Notes under the pieces: model-generated
Databases searched by the model: none
What the model was told of the DNA's origin: nothing
Seen by the model: only the letters and a program-made list of their open reading frames with translations
Program-made: the position numbers and the translations under genes
In this document: positions 1,318 through 57,846 of the stretch, piece after piece
Numbering within the stretch: the stretch's first letter is position 1
Layout: each line of letters starts with the position of its first letter
Source: Prochlorococcus marinus XMU1419
Lineage (GTDB): Bacteria > Cyanobacteriota > Cyanobacteriia > PCC-6307 > Cyanobiaceae
Reading direction: 5' to 3'
DNA length: 64,000 bases
Assembly (NCBI RefSeq): GCF_017695955.1
Contig: NZ_JAAORO010000001.1
Coordinates: 1 to 64,000 of the forward strand

Positions 1318-2025
1318 TTGAAATTACCTAAAGAAATTTTATTAAGTGATTTACTTAAATACAATGTTAAGGGGAACTTGTCTCTTAATTATGGACATGG
1401 TGAAAATGTTTGGATGCATCCTCCAGTTCATCGAATTCTAGGATGGTATTCTCGTCCTTCAAACTTTGATTTAAAAAGAAATGTTTGGCGCTTAAATCAA
1501 ATTAATCAAATAATTGATAATGAAATTTATATTAAAGGTGATCCAGCTATTTCTGATTTAGCAACTTTAAATAGGTTTCCAACTTTAATAGAAGCTAATC
1601 TCATAAATATAAACAACTCAAGAATTGGAGTTATTGCAGATTTTTTGTTTGAAATTAAAACAGGTAAAATTAAATATTATTTAGTATCTAGATCGAATCC
1701 TAAAATTCCTGGTTCTAGTAGATGGAAATTAAATATTGATAATATTAATGATCAACAACCTGGTTTAGTATTTTGCGAAGTTAATTCTTTAGATGATTTA
1801 TATTTAATAAAATCAAGTATAAAAAATGAATTTTTTCAAAAAGGAAGAAAAATAATTGAGAGATTTGATGATATGAAAAATGTTGCATCTAATAGATTAG
1901 AGGATTGGCTCGAAGAAGATGAAGATATAAACCAAAACTTAGATTTTAAACAAAAAAGTTTTTATAATAACAATAGAACATCAAGATCTTTTAGTGAAAA
2001 AAAAGAAGATGACCCTTGGATTTAA
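1318..2025 (+). CDS. PRC-barrel domain protein, function unknown
   Basis: The 235-residue protein starts with TTG one base after the dnaN stop, so translational coupling is likely. Residues about 100-140 (NSRIGVIADFLFEIKTGKIK) have the pattern of a PRC-barrel, a small beta-barrel also found in RimM and photosynthetic reaction-centre H subunits. The C-terminal 50 residues are charged and low-complexity, with an acidic stretch (EDWLEEDEDINQ). There is no signal peptide or membrane span. I recall this gene keeping its place between dnaN and purL in marine picocyanobacteria, but I know of no tested function. The domain call is moderately sure; the role is open. Confidence 0.8.
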   Translation: MKLPKEILLSDLLKYNVKGNLSLNYGHGENVWMHPPVHRILGWYSRPSNFDLKRNVWRLNQINQIIDNEIYIKGDPAISDLATLNRFPTLIEANLININNSRIGVIADFLFEIKTGKIKYYLVSRSNPKIPGSSRWKLNIDNINDQQPGLVFCEVNSLDDLYLIKSSIKNEFFQKGRKIIERFDDMKNVASNRLEDWLEEDEDINQNLDFKQKSFYNNNRTSRSFSEKKEDDPWI

Positions 2026-2028
2026 AGA

Positions 2029-4365
2029 ATGATAAATAAAGAAAATAATGATCCTTTTGATCTAAATAAAATACTAAATGTTGAAAATTTAACAATTAAT
2101 GATTACGAAGAGATTTGTAAAAGATTGAAGAGAAAACCTAATAGAACAGAATTAGGGATGTTTGGTGTTATGTGGTCTGAACATTGTTGTTATAGAAATT
2201 CAAAACCTTTACTTTCTAAGTTTCCTATTAAGGGAAAAAATGTTTTGGTTGGTCCTGGAGAAAATGCAGGTGTTATTGATGTTGGAAATAATCAAAAACT
2301 TGTATTTAAAATAGAAAGTCATAATCATCCCTCTGCCATTGAACCTTTTCAAGGAGCAGCAACAGGTGTTGGAGGAATATTAAGAGATATTTTTACAATG
2401 GGTGCAAGGCCAATTGCAGTATTGAATTCATTGAGATTCGGAAATCTTGATAAGCCATCAAATATTGACTTGCTTAGAGGAGTTGTATCCGGAATAGCAC
2501 ATTATGGAAATTGCGTTGGTGTACCTACTGTCGGAGGTGAAATTGAATTTGATGATAGTTATTCTGGAAACCCTCTAGTCAATGTTATGGCTTTAGGACT
2601 TTTAGAGACTGATGAAATCGTTTGTTCTGGAGCTAAAAATATCGGATCACCAGTATTATATGTTGGCAACACTACTGGAAGAGATGGTGTGGGTGGTGCC
2701 AGTTTTGCTAGTTCAGAATTAACTACCTCTTCATTAGATGACAGGCCTGCAGTGCAAGTAGGTGATCCTTTTATTGAAAAAAGTCTTATAGAGGCATGTT
2801 TAGATGCTTTTAAAACAGGAGATGTAATTGCAGCTCAAGATATGGGTGCAGCCGGTTTAACGTGTAGTAGTGCAGAAATGGCTGCAAATGGAAATTTAGG
2901 TATATCTATTGATTTAGATTTGGTTCCTTCTAGAGAAGAGAATATGTCTGCATACCAATATTTACTTTCTGAATCACAAGAAAGAATGTTGTTTGTTGTG
3001 AAGGAAGAAAAAATTAATAACCTTATTGAAAAATTTACTAAGTGGGGATTACATGCCACTGTTATTGGTGAAGTAATAGAGACTAAGGAGGTAATTATTT
3101 ATCATAAAGACAAAATTGTTGCTCAAATTCCTACTTCTGCTTTATCTGATGATACGCCTGTAAATGTTCACAAAGTGATTAATAATCCACCTGATTATTT
3201 GTTAAAGAAATGGCAATGGCAAGAAAATAATTTACCAGAAATTAATAAGCAAAAAATATTTTCATTGAAATACGATAAGAGTTTTTCTTTATCAGAAATT
3301 ATTTTAAAAATTCTCTCTAATCCTTCAATAGCCTCAAAACGATGGATTTATAAACAATATGATTCTCAAGTATTGGCAAATACAGTTTTCAAACCTGGAG
3401 AATCAGATGCATCTGTAATAAGACTAAGAGAACAAAATGAAAAAAAAAGTAGAGTTTTTTCTGGTATAGCCGCTTCGGTTGATTGTAATACAAGATGGGT
3501 TTCACTTGATCCTTTTAGAGGAGCGATCGCTGCAGTTGCTGAATCTGCAAGAAACGTAAGTTGTGTTGGCGCAGAGCCACTAGCAATTACAAATAACTTA
3601 AATTTTTCTTCTCCTGAAACAGAAACAGGATATTGGCAACTTTCATCTTCGTGTGACGGAATTTCTGAAGCTTGCAAAATTTTAGAGACTCCTGTTACTG
3701 GAGGAAATGTTTCTTTATATAATGAATCAATAAATAAAGATAATAAAATTACTCCTATTAACCCTACACCAGTCATTGGAATGGTTGGGAAAATAGAAAA
3801 CGTTGAGAAAGCTATAAGTAGTGGATGGAAAAATTCTTATGATCAAATATGGATAATTGGCTCTGATAAATCAGAAAAAACAATTGCAGCTAGTTCTTAC
3901 TTGGAGTATTTTCATGGAGAAATTACAGGTCGGCCTCCAAAAATAGATTTACAGGATGAAAAATTTTGCCAAGTTTTTTTAAGGAATGCGATTATAAAAA
4001 ATTTTGTAGTTTCTTCTCATGATGTTAGTGATGGCGGTTTAGCTATTGCTTTAGCAGAATGTTGTATTTTGTCCTCGAAAGGTGCGACCATAGAGTTGCA
4101 GAAAGATGCGAATAGAGATGATAATTTATTGTTTGCAGAGGGAGGGTCAAGAATTATTTTTTCAGTAGATAAAAGGAAAGAAAGAGATTGGCTTAATTAT
4201 TTAAAAAAGATTCAAATAAATTTGAAATCAAGTATTTACGTTAAGAAAATAGGCTATGTTTCGACTCAAACTTTAAACATAAAAATTCAAGATAAAAATA
4301 TCTGCAATATTAGGGTTGAGGAATTAACAGAAAAATTTAATAATAGTATTTCCGGTTATTTTTAA
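2029..4365 (+). CDS. purL: Phosphoribosylformylglycinamidine synthase, PurL subunit
   Basis: The 778-residue protein is the small-type PurL, which works with separate PurQ and PurS subunits to convert FGAR to FGAM using ATP and glutamine-derived ammonia, the fourth step of purine synthesis. Length separates it from the roughly 1,300-residue fused enzyme. Visible family motifs are SEHCC (residues 50-54), the ESHNHPSAIEPFQGAATG region near 96-113 and the C-terminal SSHDVSDGGLAIALAE segment. It starts 3 bp after the PRC-barrel gene and is followed 47 bp later by purF, so two purine genes are adjacent. purQ and purS are not in this window. Confidence 0.96.
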   Translation: MINKENNDPFDLNKILNVENLTINDYEEICKRLKRKPNRTELGMFGVMWSEHCCYRNSKPLLSKFPIKGKNVLVGPGENAGVIDVGNNQKLVFKIESHNHPSAIEPFQGAATGVGGILRDIFTMGARPIAVLNSLRFGNLDKPSNIDLLRGVVSGIAHYGNCVGVPTVGGEIEFDDSYSGNPLVNVMALGLLETDEIVCSGAKNIGSPVLYVGNTTGRDGVGGASFASSELTTSSLDDRPAVQVGDPFIEKSLIEACLDAFKTGDVIAAQDMGAAGLTCSSAEMAANGNLGISIDLDLVPSREENMSAYQYLLSESQERMLFVVKEEKINNLIEKFTKWGLHATVIGEVIETKEVIIYHKDKIVAQIPTSALSDDTPVNVHKVINNPPDYLLKKWQWQENNLPEINKQKIFSLKYDKSFSLSEIILKILSNPSIASKRWIYKQYDSQVLANTVFKPGESDASVIRLREQNEKKSRVFSGIAASVDCNTRWVSLDPFRGAIAAVAESARNVSCVGAEPLAITNNLNFSSPETETGYWQLSSSCDGISEACKILETPVTGGNVSLYNESINKDNKITPINPTPVIGMVGKIENVEKAISSGWKNSYDQIWIIGSDKSEKTIAASSYLEYFHGEITGRPPKIDLQDEKFCQVFLRNAIIKNFVVSSHDVSDGGLAIALAECCILSSKGATIELQKDANRDDNLLFAEGGSRIIFSVDKRKERDWLNYLKKIQINLKSSIYVKKIGYVSTQTLNIKIQDKNICNIRVEELTEKFNNSISGYF

Positions 4366-4412
4366 ATATGAAAAATACTTCTCAAATATTTAAATTTTTA
4401 AGCAATTAAGTT

Positions 4413-5873
4413 ATGTGTGGAATAGTTGGCATTGTTTCTTCAGATGATGTAAATCAACAAATTTACGATAGTCTCTTGCTGTTACAGCATAGGGGTCAAG
4501 ATTCAACAGGTATAGCTACAATGGAAAATACTATTTTCCATATTCATAAAGCTAAAGGGCAGGTTAATACCGCTTATAGAACAAGAGATATGAGGAATTT
4601 AATTGGCAAAATTGGATTAGGTCATGTTAGGTATGCGACAAAAGGATCAGCAGAAAGTGTGGAGGAAGCCCAGCCTTTTTATGTTAATGCTCCTTATGGA
4701 ATTGTTTTGATACATAATGGTAATTTGACGAATACTAGAGATCTAGAAAAACAATTATTTAATATAGATAAAAGGCATACAAATTCTTCAAGTGATACTG
4801 AAATGCTTTTAAATGTATTAGCGACAGAATTGCAAGAACAAATACATAATCAAGAATTAGAACCTGATACCATTTTTGATGCTGTTAAATCTTTACATAA
4901 AAGAATTCAGGGTTCATATGCTTCAATTGCATTAATTTCAGGACATGGTTTATTAGCATTCAGAGATCCTTTTGGTATAAGACCTTTAGTTATCGGGAAA
5001 AGACTTTCATTAACTACAAATAAAGAAGAGTGGATGGTTGCTAGCGAATCTTTAGTGCTTGAAAATAACGATTATCAAGTAGTGAGAGATGTAGATCCTG
5101 GAGAAGCTGTTTTTATAAACCTTAACGGGGAGTTTTTTTCCAAGCAGTGTTCTGTTAACCCAATTTTATGTCCCTGTGCATTTGAATATGTTTATCTGGC
5201 TAGACCTGATTCAATTATGAACGGAATCTCTGTTTATAAAGCTCGTTTAAAAATGGGAGACTACTTGTCTGAAACAATAAAAGAAACAATAAATTCTGGA
5301 GACGTAGATGTTGTAATGCCTATCCCTGATTCTTCTAGGCCTGCTGCTATGCAAGTTGCAAGACAGTTAGGTATTGAATATAGAGAAGGTTTTTTTAAAA
5401 ATAGGTATGTTGGAAGAACATTTATAATGCCTGGTCAGCAAAAACGTAAAAAATCCGTAAGACAAAAATTAAATGCAATGAGTGCAGAGTTTAAAAATAA
5501 AAATGTACTAATTGTTGATGACTCGATAGTAAGAGGAACTACTTCAAAAGAAATTGTTCAGATGGCTAAAGATGCAGGCGCTAATAAAGTTTTTTTTACA
5601 TCGGCAGCACCACCAGTTCGCTTTCCTCATGTTTATGGAATTAATATGCCTAATAGAGATGAATTAATAGCGCATGATAGAACAATACAAGAAATTGCTA
5701 GTAAACTTGAAATCGATAATCTTGTTTATCAAAGTGTTGAAAATTTACGTAAATCTATAATAAAAGATTCGCTTATTAAAGATTTGGAGATGAGTTGCTT
5801 TACTGGTTCATATGTAACAGGAACAGTAAATCAAGAGTACTTAAATTGGGTTGAAAATGAATATAAATCTTAG
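4413..5873 (+). CDS. purF: Amidophosphoribosyltransferase
   Basis: This enzyme makes phosphoribosylamine from PRPP and glutamine, the committed step of purine synthesis. The 486-residue product begins [10 protein letters not shown], placing the N-terminal nucleophile cysteine at residue 2 without the propeptide found in the Bacillus-type enzyme. The PRPP-binding loop [13 protein letters not shown] lies near residues 365-377. Cysteines at [15 protein letters not shown] (about 253-255) and a C-terminal cysteine fit the iron-sulfur-containing class. Its TAG stop overlaps by 4 bp the TAA stop of the convergent topoisomerase gene, leaving no room for a separate terminator. Confidence 0.96.
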
Positions 5874-8314
5874 TTAAGAAACTTTTCGTGTTTAAAACAA
5901 TTTTCGAGATATTCTCCGTTATCTAATTTTAAAAAGTCAATTAAAAAATTTTTATTGTTAGATTTGGAATTTAATTTATCAAAATCTAATCTAGCCGATT
6001 TATTTTTATTAGTTTCAATATCTAGGTAATGGTTACTTGGCAAAATTTTGATAAATAAATCATCGTTTTTAAGTTGAGTTTTTTCATTTAAATATCCTAA
6101 ACTGCATTCATTTGCATAATAAATTTCATTACTATTCAGACAAAAGATTTTTCCTTTTTTTGAAATTATATAAATAATATCTCCATTCTGATATGGACAA
6201 AAAGAAACAATTTTTTCTGTTGGAAAAAGTTTTGCAAGCATTAATCCCTGTGATTGTTTACTGGTGGGCGATAAAAATTCATTTGATAAATTAAATTTGA
6301 ATAGTCTTCCTATTGAGGTTAGTATTATTAAATTTTTTTCATTATTGGCTATAAATGAATCAATTATTTTAATATTATTTTTTAATTTTGCAATTGTGAA
6401 TGATCTATTACTTTTAAGCATATTTTCATCAAATATGATTTTTTTAAATCTTCCATCTGTATTCAAGACACATAAATAATTTTTAGTGCTTTTTTTAAAT
6501 GAATGAAAATTTACAATTTCGTTTGGATCAATATTCCCAAGAATTTTATTATCTAACTTAAAGTCATTATTGATATTTGATTCCCAATCAACGTGAAAAA
6601 CTTTTCCTGAAGAAGTTATTCCAATAATTTTTACATCTTTATCGATCCTACATATAAATTTTTGAATGTTTCTATTATCTATAATTTTATTTATATCTTC
6701 AAACGATTTCTTATAGTTATTAAAAATCATTTTTTTTAAATATAGTCTATTGTCTATAAATAATTTAGTTTTTTTATTAATCAACTCCTCTAATATCTGA
6801 TTATTAATTGTTTTTAATTCTTGATTTTGATCTATATTTCTAAGAAGTTTTGTTTTTCTTTTAACATTATATTTTTTCTTCAAAATTAATAATTCTTCTA
6901 TCAGTAGATTAAGTAATAATTTTCTTTCATTTAATAACTCTTGAAAATAATACTTTTTTTCTTGTAATTTTTTTATATCAATATTTATTTGATGTCTTTC
7001 AAGATTGGTTAATTTTTTAAGAGGCATATCTAATACTGAATTTGCTTGTTTTCCACTTAAGTAAAAACTATCGATCAATTTTGATTTTGCTTCTACTGCA
7101 TTTTCTGAATCTTCAATAATTTCGATAACTTTTTTAATGTCTTTTGTTGCTTTGGATAAACCCTCCAATATTTCAAGCTTTTCAAGAGTGTTTTTGAGAA
7201 AATAATTTGTTCTTTTTCTAATTGTTTCTTCTCTAAATTCAATAAAGTAGTTTAAATATTGTTTTAAGTTTAGCTGTACGGGCTTACCATTAATTAATGC
7301 TAAAAAGATTGCTCCAAAGTTGGTTTGAAGAGTTGTTTTTTTATATAAGTTTGAAATTACAAGTTCATTATTAGAATCTTTTTTTAACTCTATTACAATT
7401 CTCATTCCATCTCTATCGCTTTCATCCCTAATATCAGAAATTCCATTAATTTTGCCTGAATTAACAAGTTCAGCTAGTTTTTCAATCCATCCTGCTTTAC
7501 TGATTTGATAAGGAAGTTCTGTTACGATCAAAGCATTTTTTTTATGCTTTCCTTTGCCTAAATTTAGTTCCTCTGTTTTTATGATACCTCTAATCGTTAT
7601 TGATCCTTTTCCGGTATCGTAAAGTTCTTCTACTGCTTTATTACAAATTAATTCTCCTCCTGTAGGAAAGTCAGGTCCTTTAATAAGGTTAAAAAGTTTT
7701 TTATTGCTTATTTCTTTATTTTCTACTAATGCAATTAAACCATCTATTATTTCTCCTAAGTTGTGAGGGGGAATGTTTGTTGCCATGCCAACAGCAATAC
7801 CAGATGATCCGTTCAACAATAAAAATGGAAGTTGAGCAGGAAGAACATCTGGTTCTTTCTGTGAACCATCAAAGTTATTTGAAAAATTTACTGTTTCTGA
7901 TCCAATTTCTTCAAGAAAGCATTGGTGAGCTATCGGTGCTAATCTGGTTTCAGTGTATCTCATCGCTGCTGGTGGATCATTATCAACAGATCCAAAATTT
8001 CCATGGCCGTCTAAGGTGGGATATTTAGTTGAAAAACTTTGTACTAGCCTTACTAGCGCATCGTAAACTGCTTGATCTCCATGAGGATGGTATTTTCCGA
8101 GTACATCTCCAACTACTCTTGCGCATTTTCTAAATGGCCTATCTGGCGTTAAACCTAATTCGTACATTGCAAATAATATTCTTCTCTGAACAGGTTTAAG
8201 ACCGTCTCTTGCATCGGGAAGAGCTCTTCCAACTATTACACTCATTGCATACTCAAGATAAGAACGTTGCATTTCTTCTTGGAGTGAGATGGAAGTGTAT
8301 TTTTTCTTATACAT
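5870..8314 (-). CDS. Type IIA topoisomerase A subunit (ParC/GyrA family)
   Basis: The 814-residue protein is the DNA-breaking subunit of a gyrase or topoisomerase IV. The N-terminal winged-helix region carries the catalytic tyrosine at Y120 ([10 protein letters not shown]), with the preceding Arg119. A long breakage-reunion and coiled-coil region follows to about residue 500, then a beta-pinwheel-like C-terminal domain rich in Lys, Asn and Ile. I cannot find the GyrA-box (QRRGGKG); the nearest stretch is SKQSQG, which favours a ParC-like or degenerate gyrase role. The residue equivalent to E. coli GyrA Ser83 is Gln81 (HGDQAVYDA). A second A subunit elsewhere in the genome is expected but cannot be seen here. 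Confidence 0.9.
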
Positions 8315-11774: not shown

Positions 11775-13151
11775 ATGACAAATATTGATTCTGATAATTC
11801 TCGAGAATGGGCTGCACAAGCTTATGCATTACTAAAACAACGACAAGAGGAGCAGAAACAAGAATTAAAGAAACAAGAGGAGCAGAAACAAGAATTAAAG
11901 AAACAAGAGGAGCAGAAACAAGAATTAAAGAAACAAGAGGAGCAGAAACAAGAATTAAAGAAACAAGAGGAGCAGAAACAAGAATTAAAGAAACAAGAGG
12001 AGCAGAAACAAGAATTAAAGAAACAAGAGGAGCAGAAACAAGAATTAAAGAAACAAGAGGAGCAGAAACAAAGTTTGATTGATAGTGATACTAAAGAAAA
12101 CCTTCAATCATTTAAAAATATTCCTGAACCTGAATTAGGAGATTTTGATGATAATTTTACTTGGTCGGCAATGGTACTAGCTTCACAAGGAAAAAATATC
12201 AATCAAATTTCGATAGATGAAATCGATTGGTTAACTAAATTAAGAAGAGGTTTAGAAGAAACAAGAAAAGGATTTGTTACTGAATTATTGGATAAATTAG
12301 GAGATGATCCTCTTACTCCGGAATCTCTTGATGATTTAGAGACCCTTTTGATAAGAGCTGATGTTGGTATAGATTCAACTGATAAAGTTATAGGATCTCT
12401 TAGAAAAAAATTAAATGAAGAAGTCGTTGGGGGAGAAGCAGGTATAAAATTTTTAAAAAAAGAATTAAAATTAATCATTGACAAACCAATAAAAAATTCA
12501 GGCACTGATCTTTTAGTTCCTAAAAAGGGTAAGTTAAACGTTTGGTTAGTAGTAGGAGTTAATGGAGTTGGCAAAACTACTACTATTGGAAAGTTAGCAT
12601 TCTTGTCTGCGAGAAGTAATTATAAAACCTTGATAGCTGCTGCAGATACTTTTAGAGCTGCTGCTGTAGAACAACTTAAAGTATGGGGTGAGAGGAGTAA
12701 TGTTGATGTTATATCTAATCAATCAAAGAATGCTGATCCTGCCGCTGTAGTTTTTGATGCTATTAATTCCGCAATACAAAGAAACGTCGATCTTTTATTA
12801 GTTGATACAGCAGGCAGATTGCAAACAAAAAATAATTTGATGGATGAACTAGCAAAAATAAAAAAAATTATTGATAAAAAGGCTCCAAATGCAAGTATTG
12901 AATCATTATTGGTTTTGGATGCCAGTCAAGGTCAAAATGGTTTAAAACAAGCAAAAAGTTTTGCGAAATCGGCAAATTTAAGTGGAGCAATTATTACTAA
13001 ATTGGATGGAACTTCAAGAGGAGGAGTATCTTTAGCTGTTGCAGAAGAAGTTAATTTGCCCATAAGATTTATTGGAGCTGGCGAAGGTATAAAAGATTTG
13101 AGACCCTTTAATAGTTATGAATTTGTCGAGGCTATGCTTGCAGATAAATAA
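11775..13151 (+). CDS. ftsY: Signal recognition particle receptor FtsY
   Basis: FtsY is the membrane-associated receptor that docks SRP-ribosome complexes for co-translational insertion. The NG GTPase module fills the C-terminal 300 residues: P-loop GVNGVGKTTTIGKLA (about 261-275), DTFRAAAVEQL, DTAGR near 344 and TKLDGT near 409. The N-terminal A region is unusual: residues 24-93 are seven perfect copies of QEEQKQELKK plus a partial eighth, encoded by a 30-bp tandem repeat. That gives a long, strongly charged helix, possibly a membrane- or translocon-contacting arm. The ATG at 11775 follows AAAAAGGA (11754-11761). Confidence 0.96.
   Translation: MTNIDSDNSREWAAQAYALLKQRQEEQKQELKKQEEQKQELKKQEEQKQELKKQEEQKQELKKQEEQKQELKKQEEQKQELKKQEEQKQELKKQEEQKQSLIDSDTKENLQSFKNIPEPELGDFDDNFTWSAMVLASQGKNINQISIDEIDWLTKLRRGLEETRKGFVTELLDKLGDDPLTPESLDDLETLLIRADVGIDSTDKVIGSLRKKLNEEVVGGEAGIKFLKKELKLIIDKPIKNSGTDLLVPKKGKLNVWLVVGVNGVGKTTTIGKLAFLSARSNYKTLIAAADTFRAAAVEQLKVWGERSNVDVISNQSKNADPAAVVFDAINSAIQRNVDLLLVDTAGRLQTKNNLMDELAKIKKIIDKKAPNASIESLLVLDASQGQNGLKQAKSFAKSANLSGAIITKLDGTSRGGVSLAVAEEVNLPIRFIGAGEGIKDLRPFNSYEFVEAMLADK
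11844..12071 (+). repeat. 30-bp minisatellite inside ftsY (7 perfect copies plus 18 bp)
   Basis: The unit caagaggagcagaaacaaga + attaaagaaa repeats seven times without a single mismatch from 11844 to 12053, followed by the first 18 bases of an eighth copy. The unit is a multiple of three, so copy-number change keeps the ftsY frame. It also keeps a second frame open, which produces a spurious 91-codon ORF. Perfect identity between copies implies recent expansion by slippage or unequal recombination, so strain-to-strain length variation is expected. Confidence 0.97.
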
Positions 13152-40544: not shown

Positions 40545-42347
40545 TTAATAGTTAGCACCAGTTTTGCGGTGGTGAACTGCTGTTAGACTATCGGATTTAA
40601 CTATATTACCGTGTAGCACTTCGGCGTAAATCACCCAATGATCTCCACATTCCATTCTCTCTTTTACAGAAGCATCTAACCATGCTAATGACTCAGGAAT
40701 TATTATCTGTTCGTTAGGAGTCAATTCAATGTTTAATCCTTCAAATCTATTTTCTCCAGGCGCAAAGGGTCTTGTAAATCTTTTCAAAGGTTCTTTAAAA
40801 TCTTTTTCACTTAGAATATTTAATGCGAATGAATCTCCAATTTGAAGCAAAGATTCTACTGATCTATCTTTTGCTACTGCGATACTTAATCCAGGAGGAG
40901 AAAAACTTGCTTGACTAACCCATGATGCAAGCATCGCTCCTTTTATATTGTTTTCATCTTTTCCTTTGGAAGCAGTAAGAACGCAAAGTGAACCAATTAC
41001 TCTTCCAAGAGCTTGTAGCTTTGGATCTGTTTTGCTTGTTATCATTCCTGTATCAGATTTTCTAGGTTTTTTCTTTGTTTTTTTTATGATTGTTCTTCCA
41101 AAGTGAGTTCCTATTTCTTCTAGTTCTTTAATCTTTGGTTTATTAGGGCTAAATTTAATTCTTATAGGATCAAAATTAAACTTAAAACCACCGTCTTTCA
41201 ATTTTGATTCAAGTAAATCTATTGCTTCACCGCTCCAGCCAAAACTACCAAAAATTCCTACTGGTTTATCTCTATTTCCCTCTGATAACAATGTTCCAAG
41301 TGCACTTACTATAGGAGTTGGAGCATGACCCCCTAGTGTGGGAGACCCTATTAAATATCCATCAGCATTTTGAATGGATTTTACAAGTACATCATTAGGG
41401 GTAAATTCACAATTAATACTGTCTACCTCAACTGAAGTTCTATTGATCCCTTTAGCTAATGCGTCACCAATGGATGCTGTATTTCCATATGCACTTGCAT
41501 AAATTAAAACGATTTTAGGATTATTTGTTATGAGATTTTCACCCCATCTGATGTAGTCAATTAGAAAGCTTTTTAAGCTGTATTCAATAGCTGGACCATG
41601 TAATGGTGCGATAGTTTTTATATCATACTCTGCAATTTTTTCAGTTATTGTTATCACTTGATTAGACATTGGTGCCATAAGGCAATCATAAAAATGCTTT
41701 CTATCAATTTCTGTACATAATCGATTTTTTTCAGACCAATATTTAGATGAAATGTGTGCTGAAAAGATCTTTTCACTTAGAAGGAGTTCTTGATTTCTTT
41801 CATATACTATTAGGCCTCCAGGCCAACGGGCTGTTGGTATAGGAATTAAATCTAGTGAAATATGATCTAATTCTAAATGATGTTCTTTTTTGACTACTTT
41901 TAATTTGGGTAATTGAATTTCAATAAAGTTTTTTAAGTTAGGATTTCTTTGATTCCAAAGTTCGGTAATAAGTTTAAAACCAGGATTTGAGCAAATAATA
42001 GTTAAGTTTTGAAAATGCGTACTAATTTTTTTTATGGTTTCTATGATTTGTGGATTAATATGACCAGTAATTATATTGATTTTATGTAATTTGAATTGAC
42101 CATAAAAACTAGATATTTCCTCAAAAAATTTATCTAAATATTGTTTTTCAGGAGGATGAATAATAAAAAGTTCCTCATTACTTCTCATTAAAAAAGTATT
42201 AAAAGAGGACCCTTGTTCAAGACTAAACTCAAGTTCAAATCTTTCTTTATTTTGATCTAGAAATCTGATGCAAATAATATTTTCGGTAATTTCAAATTTT
42301 GATAATTTTTGATTTTTTGAAAGTAAGTTTTTATTAATTTCTGACAT
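40545..42347 (-). CDS. flv1: Flavodiiron protein, Flv1-type (degenerate metal site)
   Basis: The 600-residue protein has the three-domain cyanobacterial layout: a beta-lactamase-like diiron domain (about 1-265), a flavodoxin domain (about 275-415, starting IVLIYASAYGNTASIGDAL) and a C-terminal flavin-reductase domain (about 445-600). The diiron ligand motif is degenerate: GHINPQII stands where the Flv3-type partner has SHTEPDHSG, and TARWPGG replaces a HWPD-type segment. That pattern is the Flv1 side of the Flv1/Flv3 pair, which reduces oxygen to water at the acceptor side of photosystem I. The partner gene is 1.25 kb upstream on the same strand. Confidence 0.9.
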   Translation of the reverse strand: MSEINKNLLSKNQKLSKFEITENIICIRFLDQNKERFELEFSLEQGSSFNTFLMRSNEELFIIHPPEKQYLDKFFEEISSFYGQFKLHKINIITGHINPQIIETIKKISTHFQNLTIICSNPGFKLITELWNQRNPNLKNFIEIQLPKLKVVKKEHHLELDHISLDLIPIPTARWPGGLIVYERNQELLLSEKIFSAHISSKYWSEKNRLCTEIDRKHFYDCLMAPMSNQVITITEKIAEYDIKTIAPLHGPAIEYSLKSFLIDYIRWGENLITNNPKIVLIYASAYGNTASIGDALAKGINRTSVEVDSINCEFTPNDVLVKSIQNADGYLIGSPTLGGHAPTPIVSALGTLLSEGNRDKPVGIFGSFGWSGEAIDLLESKLKDGGFKFNFDPIRIKFSPNKPKIKELEEIGTHFGRTIIKKTKKKPRKSDTGMITSKTDPKLQALGRVIGSLCVLTASKGKDENNIKGAMLASWVSQASFSPPGLSIAVAKDRSVESLLQIGDSFALNILSEKDFKEPLKRFTRPFAPGENRFEGLNIELTPNEQIIIPESLAWLDASVKERMECGDHWVIYAEVLHGNIVKSDSLTAVHHRKTGANY

Positions 42348-42719
42348 TTTAAAATTTATTTTTAGTTTTAATTTGTGGTAGGCATGCTTATGATTGACGT
42401 CATATTTATCTTTAATGAAGATTCAACTATCGACCTGCACATGAAATTCTTTTTAAAATCGTTTAATATCAGTAAATTATACCTACAAAGTAGCTAATAC
42501 GTTTATATTGCTTGTACGTTTTCCATGTCGTACTATTAATTTTCAATACCTTCACTAGAGTATTCCTGTTTCGGATTTTTTATTATTATCACTATCCATA
42601 TAGCTAGAATATAAAAAAGGGATTCCAAAGGGACTCTTCTACATTGTTTTCAGTAAGGGATAAAAGACTTGAAGATGAAAAAAGATTCTCTAATTTTTGT
42701 TTAAATTTTATTTATACAT

Positions 42720-42750
42720 AAAAAAGGATCCCTATAACTAGAGATCCTTT
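42720..42750 (-). terminator. Rho-independent terminator of the small RNA
   Basis: Read on the minus strand, AAAGGATCTCT (42750-42740), loop AGTTAT and AGGGATCCTTT (42733-42723) form an 11-bp stem with one U-G pair, running into six Us (42725-42720). On the plus strand the pairing is worse and no T tract follows, so it works for leftward transcripts only. Confidence 0.8.
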
Positions 42751-42816
42751 AATAGATTTACTAAATCTAGTGTTTCCTTGTTACCACTATTTTAGTAAAC
42801 CACTCCTACACACGTA
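42720..42816 (-). ncRNA. Probable Yfr2-family small RNA (Cyano-1 type)
   Basis: On the minus strand, GGTTTACTA (42801-42793) pairs with TAGTAAATC (42763-42755) over nine pairs including one G-U. Inside, TAGTG (42789-42785) pairs with CACTA (42772-42768), leaving a 12-base loop. The loop region reads GGTAACAAGGAAACA, the doubled GG[A/T]AACA element I recall for the Yfr2-Yfr5 RNAs of Prochlorococcus. Downstream is an 11-bp terminator stem with a six-U tract. Both helices contain G-U pairs that would be C-A mismatches on the plus strand, which fixes the orientation. The 5' end is estimated from a TAATAT -10 at 42828-42823. Target unknown. Confidence 0.72.
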
Positions 42817-42874
42817 TTTACAATATTACAGATATTTCTTTTCCGTGGATGCAGGTAAAGGAATGTTATTTAAT

Positions 42875-42888
42875 TGTCACATGTGACA
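42875..42888. promoter_or_regulatory. Perfect 14-bp palindrome, candidate operator
   Basis: TGTCACATGTGACA is a perfect inverted repeat. Its half-sites resemble those of CRP-family regulators (TGTGA/TCACA) but in the opposite order, so it is not a standard CRP or NtcA site. Its centre is about 60 bp upstream of the start predicted for the -35 TTGGAC / -10 TAATTT pair, the distance typical for class I activator sites. The binding protein is unknown. Confidence 0.45.
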
Positions 42889-42906
42889 GTTGGCAAAGAA
42901 TAATAT

Positions 42907-42935
42907 TTGGACTTTAAACTTTAATCAAATAATTT
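42907..42935 (+). promoter_or_regulatory. Candidate promoter of the glycine-zipper gene
   Basis: TTGGAC (42907-42912) and TAATTT (42930-42935) are separated by 17 bp and lie about 49 bp before the ATG at 42984. This is a reasonable sigma-70-type match in AT-rich DNA, but not strong evidence by itself. Confidence 0.35.
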
Positions 42936-42983
42936 ATTCTTTAGATGTGTGAGTGAGTTGTTGAAAATATCTTAATTTTTAAA

Positions 42984-43427
42984 ATGAAAATTCTTATCAC
43001 AACTCTTATATTAGGCGCTTCTTTTCCAGTTAATGCTCATGAGAGCATTGGAGATCACATTTATCAAGAAGCATATGAGTCACAAAAAGGATACGCATAT
43101 GAGAACAAGTGCTTCAGTTATGAATATAGGGAAAAATATATTCCAGGTACTTCAACGTCTCCAGGCTATGTCAAATCTTATAGTGAGAAAGTTTCTATCC
43201 CATGCAATAGTCATCGCAAGGTATTTAACCATTATCATCATAAGACTGAACCACAAACTGCGTATGTGAAATATAAACCTGCTCCAAAATGCACTGGAAG
43301 TACAGCTTTAGGTGGATTAATCGGTGGTGGAATTGCAGCATCTTTATCAAAAAGTGATGCATATAGCTGGAGTATTCCTTTAGGTGCAGTTTTAGGTGCA
43401 GGAATTGGAAATGCCGAATGTCAATAA
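42984..43427 (+). CDS. Secreted protein with glycine-zipper region
   Basis: The 147-residue product has a signal peptide (KILITTLILGASFPVNA, cleavage probably after residue 18), then a His/Tyr-rich middle with four cysteines (KCFSYEY, IPCNSH, PKCTGS and the C-terminal AECQ). Near the C-terminus is a glycine-zipper pattern (ALGGLIGGGIAASL, then IPLGAVLGAGIGN), as in outer-membrane or cell-envelope proteins with paired short helices. The HRKVFNHYHHKTE stretch could bind metal. It is the only plus-strand gene inside the flv1-flv3 interval, so it looks inserted. I cannot name a family or function. Confidence 0.78.
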   Translation: MKILITTLILGASFPVNAHESIGDHIYQEAYESQKGYAYENKCFSYEYREKYIPGTSTSPGYVKSYSEKVSIPCNSHRKVFNHYHHKTEPQTAYVKYKPAPKCTGSTALGGLIGGGIAASLSKSDAYSWSIPLGAVLGAGIGNAECQ

Positions 43428-43601
43428 TTATGGTTTTCATTTAATATGGGGGCCAATTTTCAACGGATTTTAAACTATAAATCAAAAAAACCTAGTTATA
43501 ACTTCAATCTATATTTTCTTCAACTGGATTTCAAAGTATATTTTTTCTATCTGATTGTATTGATACCAACGGTTTATAAATACTCTAAGTCCAAAGACTG
43601 G

Positions 43602-45377
43602 TCAATAGTGATTACCAACTTTTCTATGATGAACAGCGGTTTTGCATGATAAGTCTGATACATTACCATTTTCAACAATTCCGTATATTATCCAATGATC
43701 AGGAGTTTCTAATCTTGAACTAACTTTGCAATCTAAAAAAGCGAGTGAATCTGATAGAACAGGTCCACCGATTGCAATGTTTTTAATTACATCTACATCT
43801 GCAAATCTATCAGCTCCAGGAGCAAATCTCTTTAAAAAATGTCTAAACATTTTTTGATAGTTGTCTTCTCGCAAGATATTTACAACAAATCCTTTCCCAA
43901 CTTGCATAAATGATTCAATAGCTCTATCTTTTGCAACCGCAACTGTAATACCTGGAGGAGAAAAACTTGCTTGACTGACCCAACTTGCAACCATTGCACT
44001 TTGTCTAAATGTCGAACCTTCTCCTTGGCTAGCTGTAACTACATATAATCCCCCACTTAACCTACCTAAAGCTTTATCTAAATTTGAATCCAGACTCTTC
44101 ATTGAAGCTATATTTTTCTTCTTATTTATCAATTGACCCAAGTCAGTTCCGGCTTCTTCGAATTGTTGATAAATAATAGGATCTGGAATGTTTTTAACTC
44201 TTAAAGGAGAGAAAGCTTCTTTTTGACCAAGTTCTCTTAATTTATTAGCTAAGGAATCTATTGGCTCATCATTGCCACCAAACGCATCATAGACAGCTGT
44301 AAATTGTTTTGATTTTAGTGCTGCAAATAAAGTACCAAAAGATTCTTTTAATTCATTATCTGAATTTACTGGCCAAGTGGGGATTACTACTGCTTTGGAT
44401 TCCGAAATTAAACTTGTTAATTCTTGAGGGTCGGAAGATCTTAAATCAATTAATTGAACCTGTGCATCTGCTTTACTTATTCCATGAGAGATCGCCTGAC
44501 TTAGTCGATCACAATAACCATAGTCGCTTATATAGCAGACTGATACAAAATCATTACCTTTGCTTTTATTGCTACTCCATTCTAGATATTTTCCTTTCCA
44601 AAAATTGACTTGATTTTGAAGTAAAGGCCCATGACCTACAGCTATTGTTTTTAATTCAGGTAGCTTATCTATTCTTTTAATTGCCTGCAGAACACTTCTA
44701 GCGTTTGGACCCATTAGGCAATCGTAATAAAAACGAAAATCATCATATATTTCTTTTTGATCAGCATCATAAAATTCATCAGAACAATAATGGAGTCCAA
44801 ATGCATCACATGTGTACAGAACTTGAGTGCTGTGGTCATATGAAAAAATTGTATCTGGCCAGTGTAAATTTGGGGCGCTTATAAATTCAATATTATGCTC
44901 TAAACCGCTATTAGGATTAGTTCCGAGATTTAAAAACTCTCCACTCTTAACCTCTAGACGTTTAAAGGGAATATGTATTTGATCTTCAATAAATTTAAGA
45001 GCTAATTTGGATCCTACGACTGTGATATTTTGATTTAATTCTAAAAGATTACCTATTAAACCAGAATGATCAGGTTCTGTATGGCTTGTAATTAGATAAT
45101 TAACTTCTTGTGGATTTACATTTTTCAGTAATTCTTTAAACCATAATTCTTCGAACTTTGCGTGACTAGTATCAATAATTGCTAGTTTCTCGCCTTTAAT
45201 AATAAAACTATTGTAAGTAGTTCCATTTCTTAAACCAAATTCAATATCAAATCTACTACGATCCCAATCCAAAGATCTTATGGCACAAGAATCATCAGCA
45301 AAGTTTTGAGATTGAACCGACAACTTGTTATTAGTTTTTGCCAATTTAGAATTACTTGTCTGGGCAGAGGCTATCAT
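43602..45377 (-). CDS. flv3: Flavodiiron protein, Flv3-type (canonical metal site)
   Basis: The 591-residue protein has the diiron, flavodoxin and C-terminal flavin-reductase domains. The metal-ligand set is intact: SHTEPDHSG (H-x-E-x-D-H), NLHWPDT, CDAFGLHYC and AVGHGPLL. This is the canonical pattern of Flv3, the partner of Flv1 in the Mehler-like reduction of oxygen with electrons from photosystem I. Residues 415-591 are the reductase domain, with MVASWVSQASFSPPG shared with flv1 (LASWVSQASFSPPG), showing their common origin. It is divergent from alaS with 119 bp between starts. flv1 is the next minus-strand protein gene downstream. Confidence 0.92.
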   Translation of the reverse strand: MIASAQTSNSKLAKTNNKLSVQSQNFADDSCAIRSLDWDRSRFDIEFGLRNGTTYNSFIIKGEKLAIIDTSHAKFEELWFKELLKNVNPQEVNYLITSHTEPDHSGLIGNLLELNQNITVVGSKLALKFIEDQIHIPFKRLEVKSGEFLNLGTNPNSGLEHNIEFISAPNLHWPDTIFSYDHSTQVLYTCDAFGLHYCSDEFYDADQKEIYDDFRFYYDCLMGPNARSVLQAIKRIDKLPELKTIAVGHGPLLQNQVNFWKGKYLEWSSNKSKGNDFVSVCYISDYGYCDRLSQAISHGISKADAQVQLIDLRSSDPQELTSLISESKAVVIPTWPVNSDNELKESFGTLFAALKSKQFTAVYDAFGGNDEPIDSLANKLRELGQKEAFSPLRVKNIPDPIIYQQFEEAGTDLGQLINKKKNIASMKSLDSNLDKALGRLSGGLYVVTASQGEGSTFRQSAMVASWVSQASFSPPGITVAVAKDRAIESFMQVGKGFVVNILREDNYQKMFRHFLKRFAPGADRFADVDVIKNIAIGGPVLSDSLAFLDCKVSSRLETPDHWIIYGIVENGNVSDLSCKTAVHHRKVGNHY

Positions 45378-48157: not shown

Positions 48158-50088
48158 CTACTTTTTCTGAGACTAATTTCGATTTGATCTATTAATTTCC
48201 TTGCTTCTTCAATAGTTAATTTTTTTTGATCAATTGCTGATTCAGTATTAAGTCTTATAGATTCAACCAAAGAAGCTGAACTGTAATCTAATAATTGTAA
48301 AATTTCAGATTTACTTTCCTCTTTAATAATATTTTTGACCTTATATGAATCATCTTGATTTATGTCTATATGAACAACGTTTGTACTTCCAAATAAATTG
48401 TGCAAGTTTCCTAATGCTTCTTGATAGGCTCCAGTCATAAAAATTCCAATTAAATAATCTTTATCTGCCTCTGGCTTATGTAAATTTAGTAATGATTTAA
48501 TTTTTCCATCATCAATAAAATTATTTAGTTTCCCATCTGAATCACAGGTTAAATCTGCAAAGTTGCCTTTGCAGAACGGCTCCTCTAAGTGCCTATGTAT
48601 TGGTACAATTGGAAAAATCTGATTTATTGCCCAGCTATCGGGAATAGATTTAAAGATAGATAAATTTGCATAATAAGTTGATGCAAGAGTTTCTGTAATT
48701 TCAGATAAATTAGGGTGATTGATTTCATCATTATTCAGGTTATTAGAAATTTCTTTTGCGCAAGCCCAAGTAAGTTCTTCGGCATAAGCTCTTTCTGCCA
48801 AACTTAAAAATCCTAATCTAAAAGCGACTAAGCAATCTTCTTTAAACTTTTTTGCATCATTCCATAGTTCAATTATTTGAGATAAATTTATTTTTTTATT
48901 TTTAAGTTTTTTTAATTCATAGTAAGTTTCAAGTAAATTTGAAATTATTAATTGTTGATTTTTTTTATCAAAAATTTGTAGTTTGGAACTGACATTGCTT
49001 GTTCCTAGGACATTAAAAATTAAAACTGAACAATGACTAATTATTGCTCTTCCACTTTCTGAGATTATGGTTGGATGCTTGATATTATTTAATTCACATG
49101 AATCCTTAATAGTTGCAATTACATCGTTCGCATAATTTTGAAGAGAATAATTAGTGGAGGTGTTTGAGGAGGTTTTAGTTCCATCAAAATCTATTCCTAA
49201 TCCTCCCCCAACGTCGATATATTGCATTGGAGCTCCTAGTTTGCATAGTTCAACATATATTTGACTCGCTTCTTGTAATGCGTCTTTGATTACAGCAATA
49301 TCACTTATTTGACTGCCTATATGAAAATGGAGCAATTTCATTTCGTTGATAAGATTTGCTTCTTTTAGTTCTTTTATCGTCAACATAATTTCTGGGATTG
49401 ATAATCCAAATTTGGAATTATCTCCAATAGATTTACTCCACCTACCACTACTTTTACTTGATAACTTTGCTCTAATTCCTATCAATGGAGTTGCGTTAAG
49501 TTCCTGAACTGCTTGAATAATTCTTCTTACCTCATCTCGTTGTTCAATAACTATTATTGGATTTTTACCGAGTTTTCTTGCCAAAGTAGCAATCTCAATA
49601 TATTTTTTATCTTTATATCCGTTGCATATTAATAATGCATTTTGGTTTTCAAGAAGTGCAAGGCCAATTAATAGTTCTGATTTACTTCCTACTTCTAAAC
49701 CAAAATTCCATTGGCTACCAAACTCTATTATCTTTTCTAGGACATTTTTCTGTTGATTACATTTGACAGGAAAAACGCCTTGATAAATGTTCTCATATTT
49801 ATAGGTTTTTATTGCTTTTAAAAAAGAGTCATGTAATGCATTTATGCGATCTTTCAAGATATCATTAAATCTGATTATTAATGGAGGATTTATTTCTCTA
49901 CTCTTGAGTTCTTTGACAAGCTTAAAAAGATCAATCTTATTTTCAGATTTCATATCTTTAGTTACTGATATATTTCCTTTGGAATTTATAGAAAAATATT
50001 TATCTCCCCATTTGTCTATGTTATAAGTCGAAATACTATCTTCAATAGTCCAAATATTCTTTAATTTTTTCGGCTCAAAATTGGTCAA
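48142..50088 (-). CDS. speA: Biosynthetic arginine decarboxylase
   Basis: SpeA decarboxylates arginine to agmatine, the first step to putrescine and spermidine. The 648-residue length is typical of the fold-III PLP enzyme. The PLP lysine is Lys109 ([13 protein letters not shown]). Further family segments are [46 protein letters not shown] and ISESGRAI. The allosteric C-terminal helical part is present. It is convergent with alaS with a 16-bp overlap, and divergent from ndk. Confidence 0.95.
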
Positions 50089-57522: not shown

Positions 57523-57547
57523 AAAAAGTGGAGTCCTTCCAGACTCC
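57523..57547 (-). terminator. Terminator of ssrA
   Basis: On the minus strand GGAGTC (57547-57542), loop TGGAAG, and GACTCC (57535-57530) form a 6-bp stem followed by ACTTTTTT (57529-57522). It lies at the 3' end of the tmRNA coding piece. Confidence 0.75.
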
Positions 57548-57549
57548 TT

Positions 57550-57800
57550 GTATCATTTGGTTGATAAGGCTGATATAACCCCATCTCCTTTAGGATCAAG
57601 CAGCAACTGGTGCTGTTTGACGGGAGAAACTAACGATTTTGTTAGCATTTGTGTTTTTGCTCTAACCGAGCAGGCTTCAGTCACCTTCCTTATGCCCCGT
57701 CGAAACCATTACAACCCCAAATAGTGGAGTTGAGCGGAATCGAACCGCTGTCCGAAACATCGGTTGAGATCACCTAGTCCAATTGGACATTTATATTCTG
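57550..57800 (-). ncRNA. ssrA: tmRNA, permuted two-piece form
   Basis: tmRNA rescues stalled ribosomes and tags the product. Read on the minus strand, the acceptor piece comes first: T-loop GGTTCGATTCC then CAACTCCA, ending at discriminator A57725. After a six-base spacer (57724-57719) the coding piece begins GGGGTTGTAATGG (from 57718). Bases GGGGTTG pair with CAACTCC with a G-U at the third pair, the alanine identity element. The tag frame runs 57646-57596 and gives ANKIVSFSRQTAPVAA then TGA. The CCA end is not encoded. The outer boundaries are estimates. This permuted order is known for Prochlorococcus and marine Synechococcus. Confidence 0.93.
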
Positions 57801-57846
57801 ACAGGCAAAATGAGTATTGAATAGTTTTTTTAAGTTTTTATCTTAT

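Follow-up and report, generated by a model that had tools for sequence, protein, structure and literature searches.

A Yfr2-family RNA gene between flv3 and flv1 of Prochlorococcus marinus XMU1419 and a divergent protein gene that share a palindrome, a probable GntR site

The closest described relatives of the RNA considered here are Yfr2 to Yfr5 of Prochlorococcus MED4 (RF01701), which have in common with it a 5' GUGUG-AGGAG tail, a long stem, a 12-nt loop of the GGAAACA type and a terminator, within a published length range of 89–95 nt for Yfr2-type RNAs (PMC1242208). The yfr2 genes were described as multicopy and located at unconserved loci (PMC2518516; PMC6778093), so that a further copy at a new site is to be expected. 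A tandem arrangement, Yfr10-CGRE1-Yfr2, was reported for high-light Prochlorococcus (PMC2518516; PMC6778093), and the GntR regulator PMM1637 was found to bind yfr2 promoters bearing CGRE1, an element that, as stated in the same report, is absent from the MED4 genome except at the yfr2 homologs, which is why the GntR regulon was sought via Yfr2 (PMC6778093). An interaction between the Yfr2 tail and Yfr1, whose targets in MED4 include PMM1119 and PMM1121, was described for this strain (PMC2518516; PMC6778093); in E. coli, repression of a PMM1121 reporter by Yfr1 amounted to 4.7-fold, and Yfr2 restored the reporter (PMC6778093).

We analysed a window of 64,000 nt from Prochlorococcus marinus XMU1419 (contig NZ_JAAORO010000001.1, positions 1–64,000), in which a structured minus-strand RNA had been predicted and likened to the Yfr2-Yfr5 family. 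This assignment is borne out by the covariance model RF01701 (Cyano-1, Yfr2 family), which matches the minus strand directly at 42815–42749 over its full length (model positions 1–69) with 48.5 bits, above the cut-off of 41 (cmscan). The minus strand of 42816–42720 folds with a minimum free energy of −31.9 kcal/mol (z −5.15, equalled by 0 of 200 shuffles) and the plus strand of the same stretch with −21.2 kcal/mol (z −3.97, equalled by 1 of 200); since the minus-strand fold is the better one, the earlier argument for a minus-strand orientation holds. Two nested helices, a 12-nt loop and a terminator are all present where they had been placed: the outer helix (42801–42791 with 42765–42755), which has 11 pairs and not the nine originally counted, the inner helix (42789–42785 with 42772–42768) and the loop (42784–42773), each given by the fold, lie in a stem-loop with GGUAACA (AGGAAACA) in its 12-nt loop region (42755–42801; fold and covariation), and the intrinsic terminator, of 12 pairs, stands at 42723–42750 (fold and terminator scan). 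The loop carries the doubled GGAAACA of the family on a long stem, with one substitution (first repeat GGUAACA), and the unpaired 5' tail GUGUGUAGGAG (42803–42813, minus strand) has the GUGUG-AGGAG that is predicted to pair with Yfr1/Yfr10.

The four mapped 5' ends of MED4 yfr2, yfr3, yfr4 and yfr5 (Table 2 of PMC1242208) all coincide with the first G of GTGTG (L151–L154; genome G032, taken as MED4), and we therefore predict the start of the window RNA at 42813, not 42816, which shortens the ~97-nt RNA of the original prediction (42720–42816), itself real, to about 94 nt. Judged by its sequence, 42720–42813 (minus strand) is a true Yfr2-family sRNA gene, with a start set by homology to MED4 and an end set by the terminator and its T run. 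A probable −10 element of the RNA, TAATATT (42822–42828, minus strand), was recognized by eye against the MED4 copies; it is absent from the promoter-scan list.

The RNA gene was correctly placed between flv1 (flv1-type flavodiiron gene, 40545–42347, minus strand; ORF with ODP, Flavodoxin_1 and Flavin_Reduct domains) and flv3 (flv3-type flavodiiron gene, 43602–45377, minus strand; ORF and domains), whose 3' end borders the insert separating the two genes (42348–43601). A divergent gene for a 147-aa protein, however, also lies between them; we call it gz (42984–43427, plus strand). What is new here is this neighbour and not the RNA, which belongs to a published family. The gz ORF has a signal-peptide-like start, recognized by eye, and a weak match to the glycine zipper PF05433 (E 0.0015, 18.8 bits, below the cut-off of 24.2). 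Its predicted mRNA leader (42947–42983, plus strand), with a putative start placed by spacing and conservation, begins with GUGUGAGUGAGUU and resembles Yfr2's own 5' end.

A perfect 14-bp palindrome, TGTCACATGTGACA (42875–42888), which would serve both directions, has its centre 68.5 nt from the GTGTG on the Yfr2 side and 65.5 nt from that on the gz side. The block common to Yfr2 units is present at this palindrome, as seen by comparison among the units collected here. The genome has a single GntR-domain gene, 84% identical to one MED4 gene, which we infer to be the counterpart of PMM1637, and the palindrome is probably the site of this single GntR-type regulator, that is, an operator that may be equated with CGRE1. 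At 27 of the 29 gz loci that we found, the palindrome is exact and its centre lies 63.5–66.5 nt from GTGTG in all 27; in the remaining two it is off by one base. The Yfr2-side half-site, TGTGACA, occurs in 72 of 81 Yfr2 units (a set that skips four loci repeating the window), its centre being 65.5–69.5 nt from GTGTG in 72 of 72, and the full palindrome in 4 of the 81, the window included. In MED4, a palindrome-half block likewise stands upstream of three of the four copies. The genome contains CTGTCACATG three times, once in the window, once by the second Yfr2 copy and once within a long coding sequence. Among the matches listed, the Yfr2 side from palindrome to terminator (query 710–885) is a standard unit shared elsewhere in many genomes, and the gz side (query 1–742) is common to gz loci; the two shared stretches overlap at the palindrome, and the simplest account would be that a Yfr2 unit and gz were joined there.

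Full-length gz relatives (at least 58% identity) were found in 29 of 265 genomes searched; of 29 gz loci from a DNA search, 21 have flv3 in their 1.5-kb flanks and eight have neither flv gene there. GTGTG stands 35–40 nt before the start codon at every one of the 29 loci of the genome search. As observed directly in the 28 distinct sequences of these loci, the palindrome (majority identity 0.99) and the leader motif (0.97) are the best-conserved blocks upstream of gz, next to 0.88 for both the spacer and the remaining leader sequence and 0.69 for sequence beyond the palindrome; in the lowest column of the leader motif (0.71), an A is replaced by G or T, or missing, in some genomes. Four loci (L224, L227, L230 and L238) have different sequence farther upstream and no flv gene nearby, with gz retaining the palindrome and the tagged leader, as if gene and operator travel together. 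A gz-related glycine-zipper-type protein is encoded elsewhere in this genome (G000:C2:173714–173968; 47% identity over 100 aa), with neither palindrome nor GTGTG leader seen upstream by eye; the weaker gz matches, among those listed, look like a distinct conserved paralogue, also at C2:173714.

This genome has a Yfr1-type sequence flanked by a thioredoxin-like gene and an IMP-dehydrogenase-like gene, which by eye are trxA and guaB. Scanned against 6392 overlapping 80-nt stretches from both strands of the window, its motif is predicted to pair best with the region upstream of gz (−21.2 kcal/mol), which also ranked first for Yfr1 pairing among the 80-nt leaders of 60 mechanical ORFs of at least 100 aa (runner-up −12.8). 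Counting only the transcript from 42947, the gz value is −16.9 and not −21.2, and 21 of the 6392 stretches equal or beat it: eight are gz or Yfr2, and 13 fall in four unrelated places, all on the plus strand with −17.2 to −19.1 (49101–49220, 12621–12760, 4601–4720 and 7701–7800), none of them among the best of the 60 ORF leaders. The Yfr2 5' tail gave −18.8 in the 80-nt stretch scan, and the first 16 nt of Yfr2 gave −18.6 kcal/mol with the single-stranded segment of Yfr1. For the leader variants with G and with T the predicted energies are −16.0 and −15.5 kcal/mol, next to −16.9 for gz of the window, and weaker pairing was found for the gz relative L221 (−13.1) and for the shortened form L239 (−11.7).

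Two homologous porin-type ORFs of MED4, taken as PMM1119 and PMM1121 (names assigned from the ORF pair), gave −17.3 and −15.1 and thus resemble gz in the GUGUGAG leader and in predicted energy. Unlike them, gz does not encode a porin, and its site, at the predicted 5' end, begins 37 nt before the start codon, whereas GTGTGAG begins 14 nt before the start codons in the porin leaders, so that Yfr1 might do nothing to gz or might stabilise its mRNA. Pairing energies alone are not specific, since the best Yfr1 site in a 7.5-kb MED4 control stretch (−17.6) lay at neither porin leader.

We propose, on sequence grounds and giving the proposal about an even chance, that Yfr2 and the divergent gz share one GntR palindrome, that Yfr2 titrates Yfr1 off gz and that flv1 is a bystander. 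Transcription of the RNA would run leftwards, starting 68.5 nt from the palindrome centre, and GntR bound at the palindrome would raise gz mRNA and Yfr2 together. The gz product would be a small exported or envelope protein, translated from an mRNA that begins with a Yfr2-like tag predicted to pair with Yfr1; Yfr1 would pair with this leader as it does with the 5' UTR of the PMM1121 porin gene, and Yfr2, by titrating Yfr1, would free gz, so that a single divergent promoter would hold a feed-forward loop; flv1 would run from a promoter of its own. More tentatively, and with rather less than even confidence, we extend this to a general picture in which one GntR operator would drive gz and Yfr2 divergently, the sRNA would shield its partner from Yfr1, gz with palindrome and leader would be a travelling unit and a new regulon member, and the flv3 3' end would be one of its landing places. 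A protein gene seems to have joined the Yfr2/GntR circuit in about one-tenth of the genomes (29 of 265), and gz offers a direct target for testing control by GntR, Yfr1 and Yfr2 with a reporter assay of the PMM1121 type. Neither an flv3-flv1 Yfr2 locus nor a protein-coding gene that shares its operator is described in the literature titles and abstract openings that we searched.

A different reading takes the RNA for an ordinary extra Yfr2 copy that acts in trans only, through titration of Yfr1/Yfr10 and on many mRNAs, with a gz neighbourhood that means nothing. It is a serious possibility, if one that we would back at clearly less than evens: it agrees with the report of multicopy yfr2 genes at unconserved loci (PMC6778093), and a divergent gz/Yfr2 pair occurs at only 4 of the 29 gz loci (the window, G061, G139 and G062; the gz locus of G259 has a Cyano-1 match too, but otherwise positioned), so that gz needs no Yfr2 in cis. 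Nevertheless, neither a palindrome common to both sides with matched spacing nor a gz leader tagged like Yfr2 is easily called coincidence.

Compared with the Yfr10-CGRE1-Yfr2 tandem, the window agrees in the site-to-start spacing and in the Yfr2 half, but has a divergent protein gene in place of Yfr10 and a full palindrome. Compared with MED4 Yfr2-Yfr5, it differs in the GGUAACA first repeat, in its flv3-flv1 site and in having no Yfr10-type RNA upstream. The motif ACTCACTCACACAT (42945–42958, minus strand) was considered as a Yfr10/Yfr18 homologue and rejected: RF02362, which does match the units of two relatives, gave no match there even at E 10, and there is neither a TCAGAA/TTCTGA stem nor a terminator of the tandem-unit kind. 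A Yfr10 would have the motif ACUCCUCACAC in a hairpin and a terminator of its own; here the motif is ACTCACTCACACAT, with no terminator found, and read on the plus strand it is the gz leader.

It is unlikely, in our view, that the RNA is a decaying or silent Yfr2 copy. The genome (1.64 Mb, three contigs) holds a second Cyano-1 copy (C2:333523–333590) of 77.9 bits, next to which the window copy, with 48.5 bits, is the weaker. Its first loop repeat is GGTAACA, where 47 of the 50 copies of our alignment A1 have GGAAACA (in these copies, as in the 81 Yfr2 units, the loop and a large part of the tail were set by the collecting pattern, which accounts for their conservation). A gathering-level Cyano-1 match is missing from 24 of the 29 gz loci, and one relative, L033, retains, by eye, just a terminator-like stretch. 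These observations would fit decay, but both helices, the 5' tail, the loop, the terminator and the palindrome of the window copy are intact, and its stem has diverged from relatives yet retained pairing.

A comparison among Prochlorococcus strains, which the original prediction had called for, gave direct evidence of covariation, the helices keeping their pairing through compensatory change. Over the 50 distinct copies of A1 (out of 76, with 26 similar copies, L003–L031, left out), 92.9% of the helix cells are paired, and the terminator helix (helix 2) reaches 98.2%. Changes on both sides occur at 16 of the 25 pairs and in 44 cells, compared with 9.0 ± 2.5 in shuffled alignments, which ignore relatedness, and slid controls never exceeded 21; three loop-adjacent pairs are fixed by the collecting pattern and count for nothing here. 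The pair of columns 31/52 fails in 41 of the 50 copies and is U-A in the window RNA. Collection by pattern misses the more divergent copies, for example the one in G139; with the covariance model, at least one Cyano-1 match was found in 230 of the 266 genomes of the genus searched.

The original prediction had also raised an effect of the RNA on flv1 expression, which finds no support in our results. A probable flv1 promoter element, GGTATAAT (42476–42483, minus strand), lies 136 nt before flv1 and recurs about 137 nt (135–140) upstream of flv1 in 21 of the 23 inserts found at this junction, with or without Yfr2, most of the 21 having no Yfr2 copy; chance would give ~0.013 per 300 nt for sequence of this composition, although the loci are related. 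It is missing only from the two integrase-bearing inserts, L062 and L089. A generic promoter scan of the window did not list GGTATAAT, probably because a −35 match is wanting. Pairing with the flv1 leader is modest both for the RNA tail (−13.0, rank 2 of 60 ORF leaders) and for the loop (−9.5, rank 7 of 60). As GGTATAAT is independent of Yfr2, no action of the RNA on flv1 is called for, and the conservation of GGTATAAT at flv1 speaks against the RNA as a cis leader; for this reason we rejected the view that the RNA mainly works on flv1 in cis. That the RNA is a leader or attenuator of flv1 acting through terminator read-through, as its position upstream on the same strand and the possible read-through reported from Synechocystis Yfr2b/Yfr2c into the next gene (PMC2662882) might suggest, is very improbable in view of the strong terminator between RNA and flv1, of an element kept whether or not Yfr2 is present and of the absence of the insert from most relatives (56 of the 80 loci described below).

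Among the best 80 of 397 flv1 loci, flv1 directly follows flv3 in 56, with a stop-to-start gap of 15–17 nt, an insert of 303–4386 nt separates them in 23 (within L033–L112) and one locus (L100) is without flv3. The two genes are adjacent, without insert, in MED4, and of 12 Prochlorococcus rows examined in a published table, 11 have them adjacent, MED4 included, with genes between them in two Synechococcus rows (PMC4390876). The cargo of the inserts scanned is varied (HNH nuclease, rhomboid, TPR, MORN and integrase-like proteins), and, to judge from these loci, the flv3-flv1 junction takes up insertions of many kinds and marks no conserved functional link. In 10 of the 23 inserts, the 60 nt before flv1 are closer to the flv3 3' end than any sampled stretch of insert, an imperfect repeat of the kind expected for integration at the flv3 3' end. 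The locus suggests a way for sRNA genes to move with insertions at this end. The insert of L089 contains a phage-integrase-like gene (3132–4571; 27.6 bits, cut-off 27.1), and that of L062 a similar one below the same cut-off (1506–3011; 22.8 bits). For the insert in the window itself, a clear target-site repeat was rejected (score 5, matched by 113 of 114 control stretches); inserts of similar content have a clear repeat at L106 and none at L108. The sequence AGTTGAAAATCCGTTGAAA was likewise discarded as a genome-wide cassette end, with one copy at one mismatch (43458–43476) and one at three mismatches, next to four matches of the reversed control.

Complete Yfr10-Yfr2 tandems are present in two other junction inserts (L035:5556–5813 and L082:5553–5813), with the tandem motif and the loop ~440 and 249 nt before flv1, so that Yfr2 reached the flv3-flv1 junction in more than one layout. 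Three pattern matches to Yfr2 in phage contigs were taken as chance: those of L248 and L249 fall in sequence coding for WWKQGNTEQ, and that of L247 lies opposite a 532-aa ORF and gave no Cyano-1 match up to E 1. The viral contigs also contained one gz relative; its contig is 6 kb long and showed no flv match in the portion examined. Genome G051 carries two Yfr2 copies on opposite strands, ~1.2 kb apart (L181:1576–1667 and 2870–2961). Besides RF01701, the sole Rfam match in the 64-kb window at gathering thresholds is the tmRNA gene, an ordinary permuted cyanobacterial tmRNA (57531–57804, minus strand, 304 bits).
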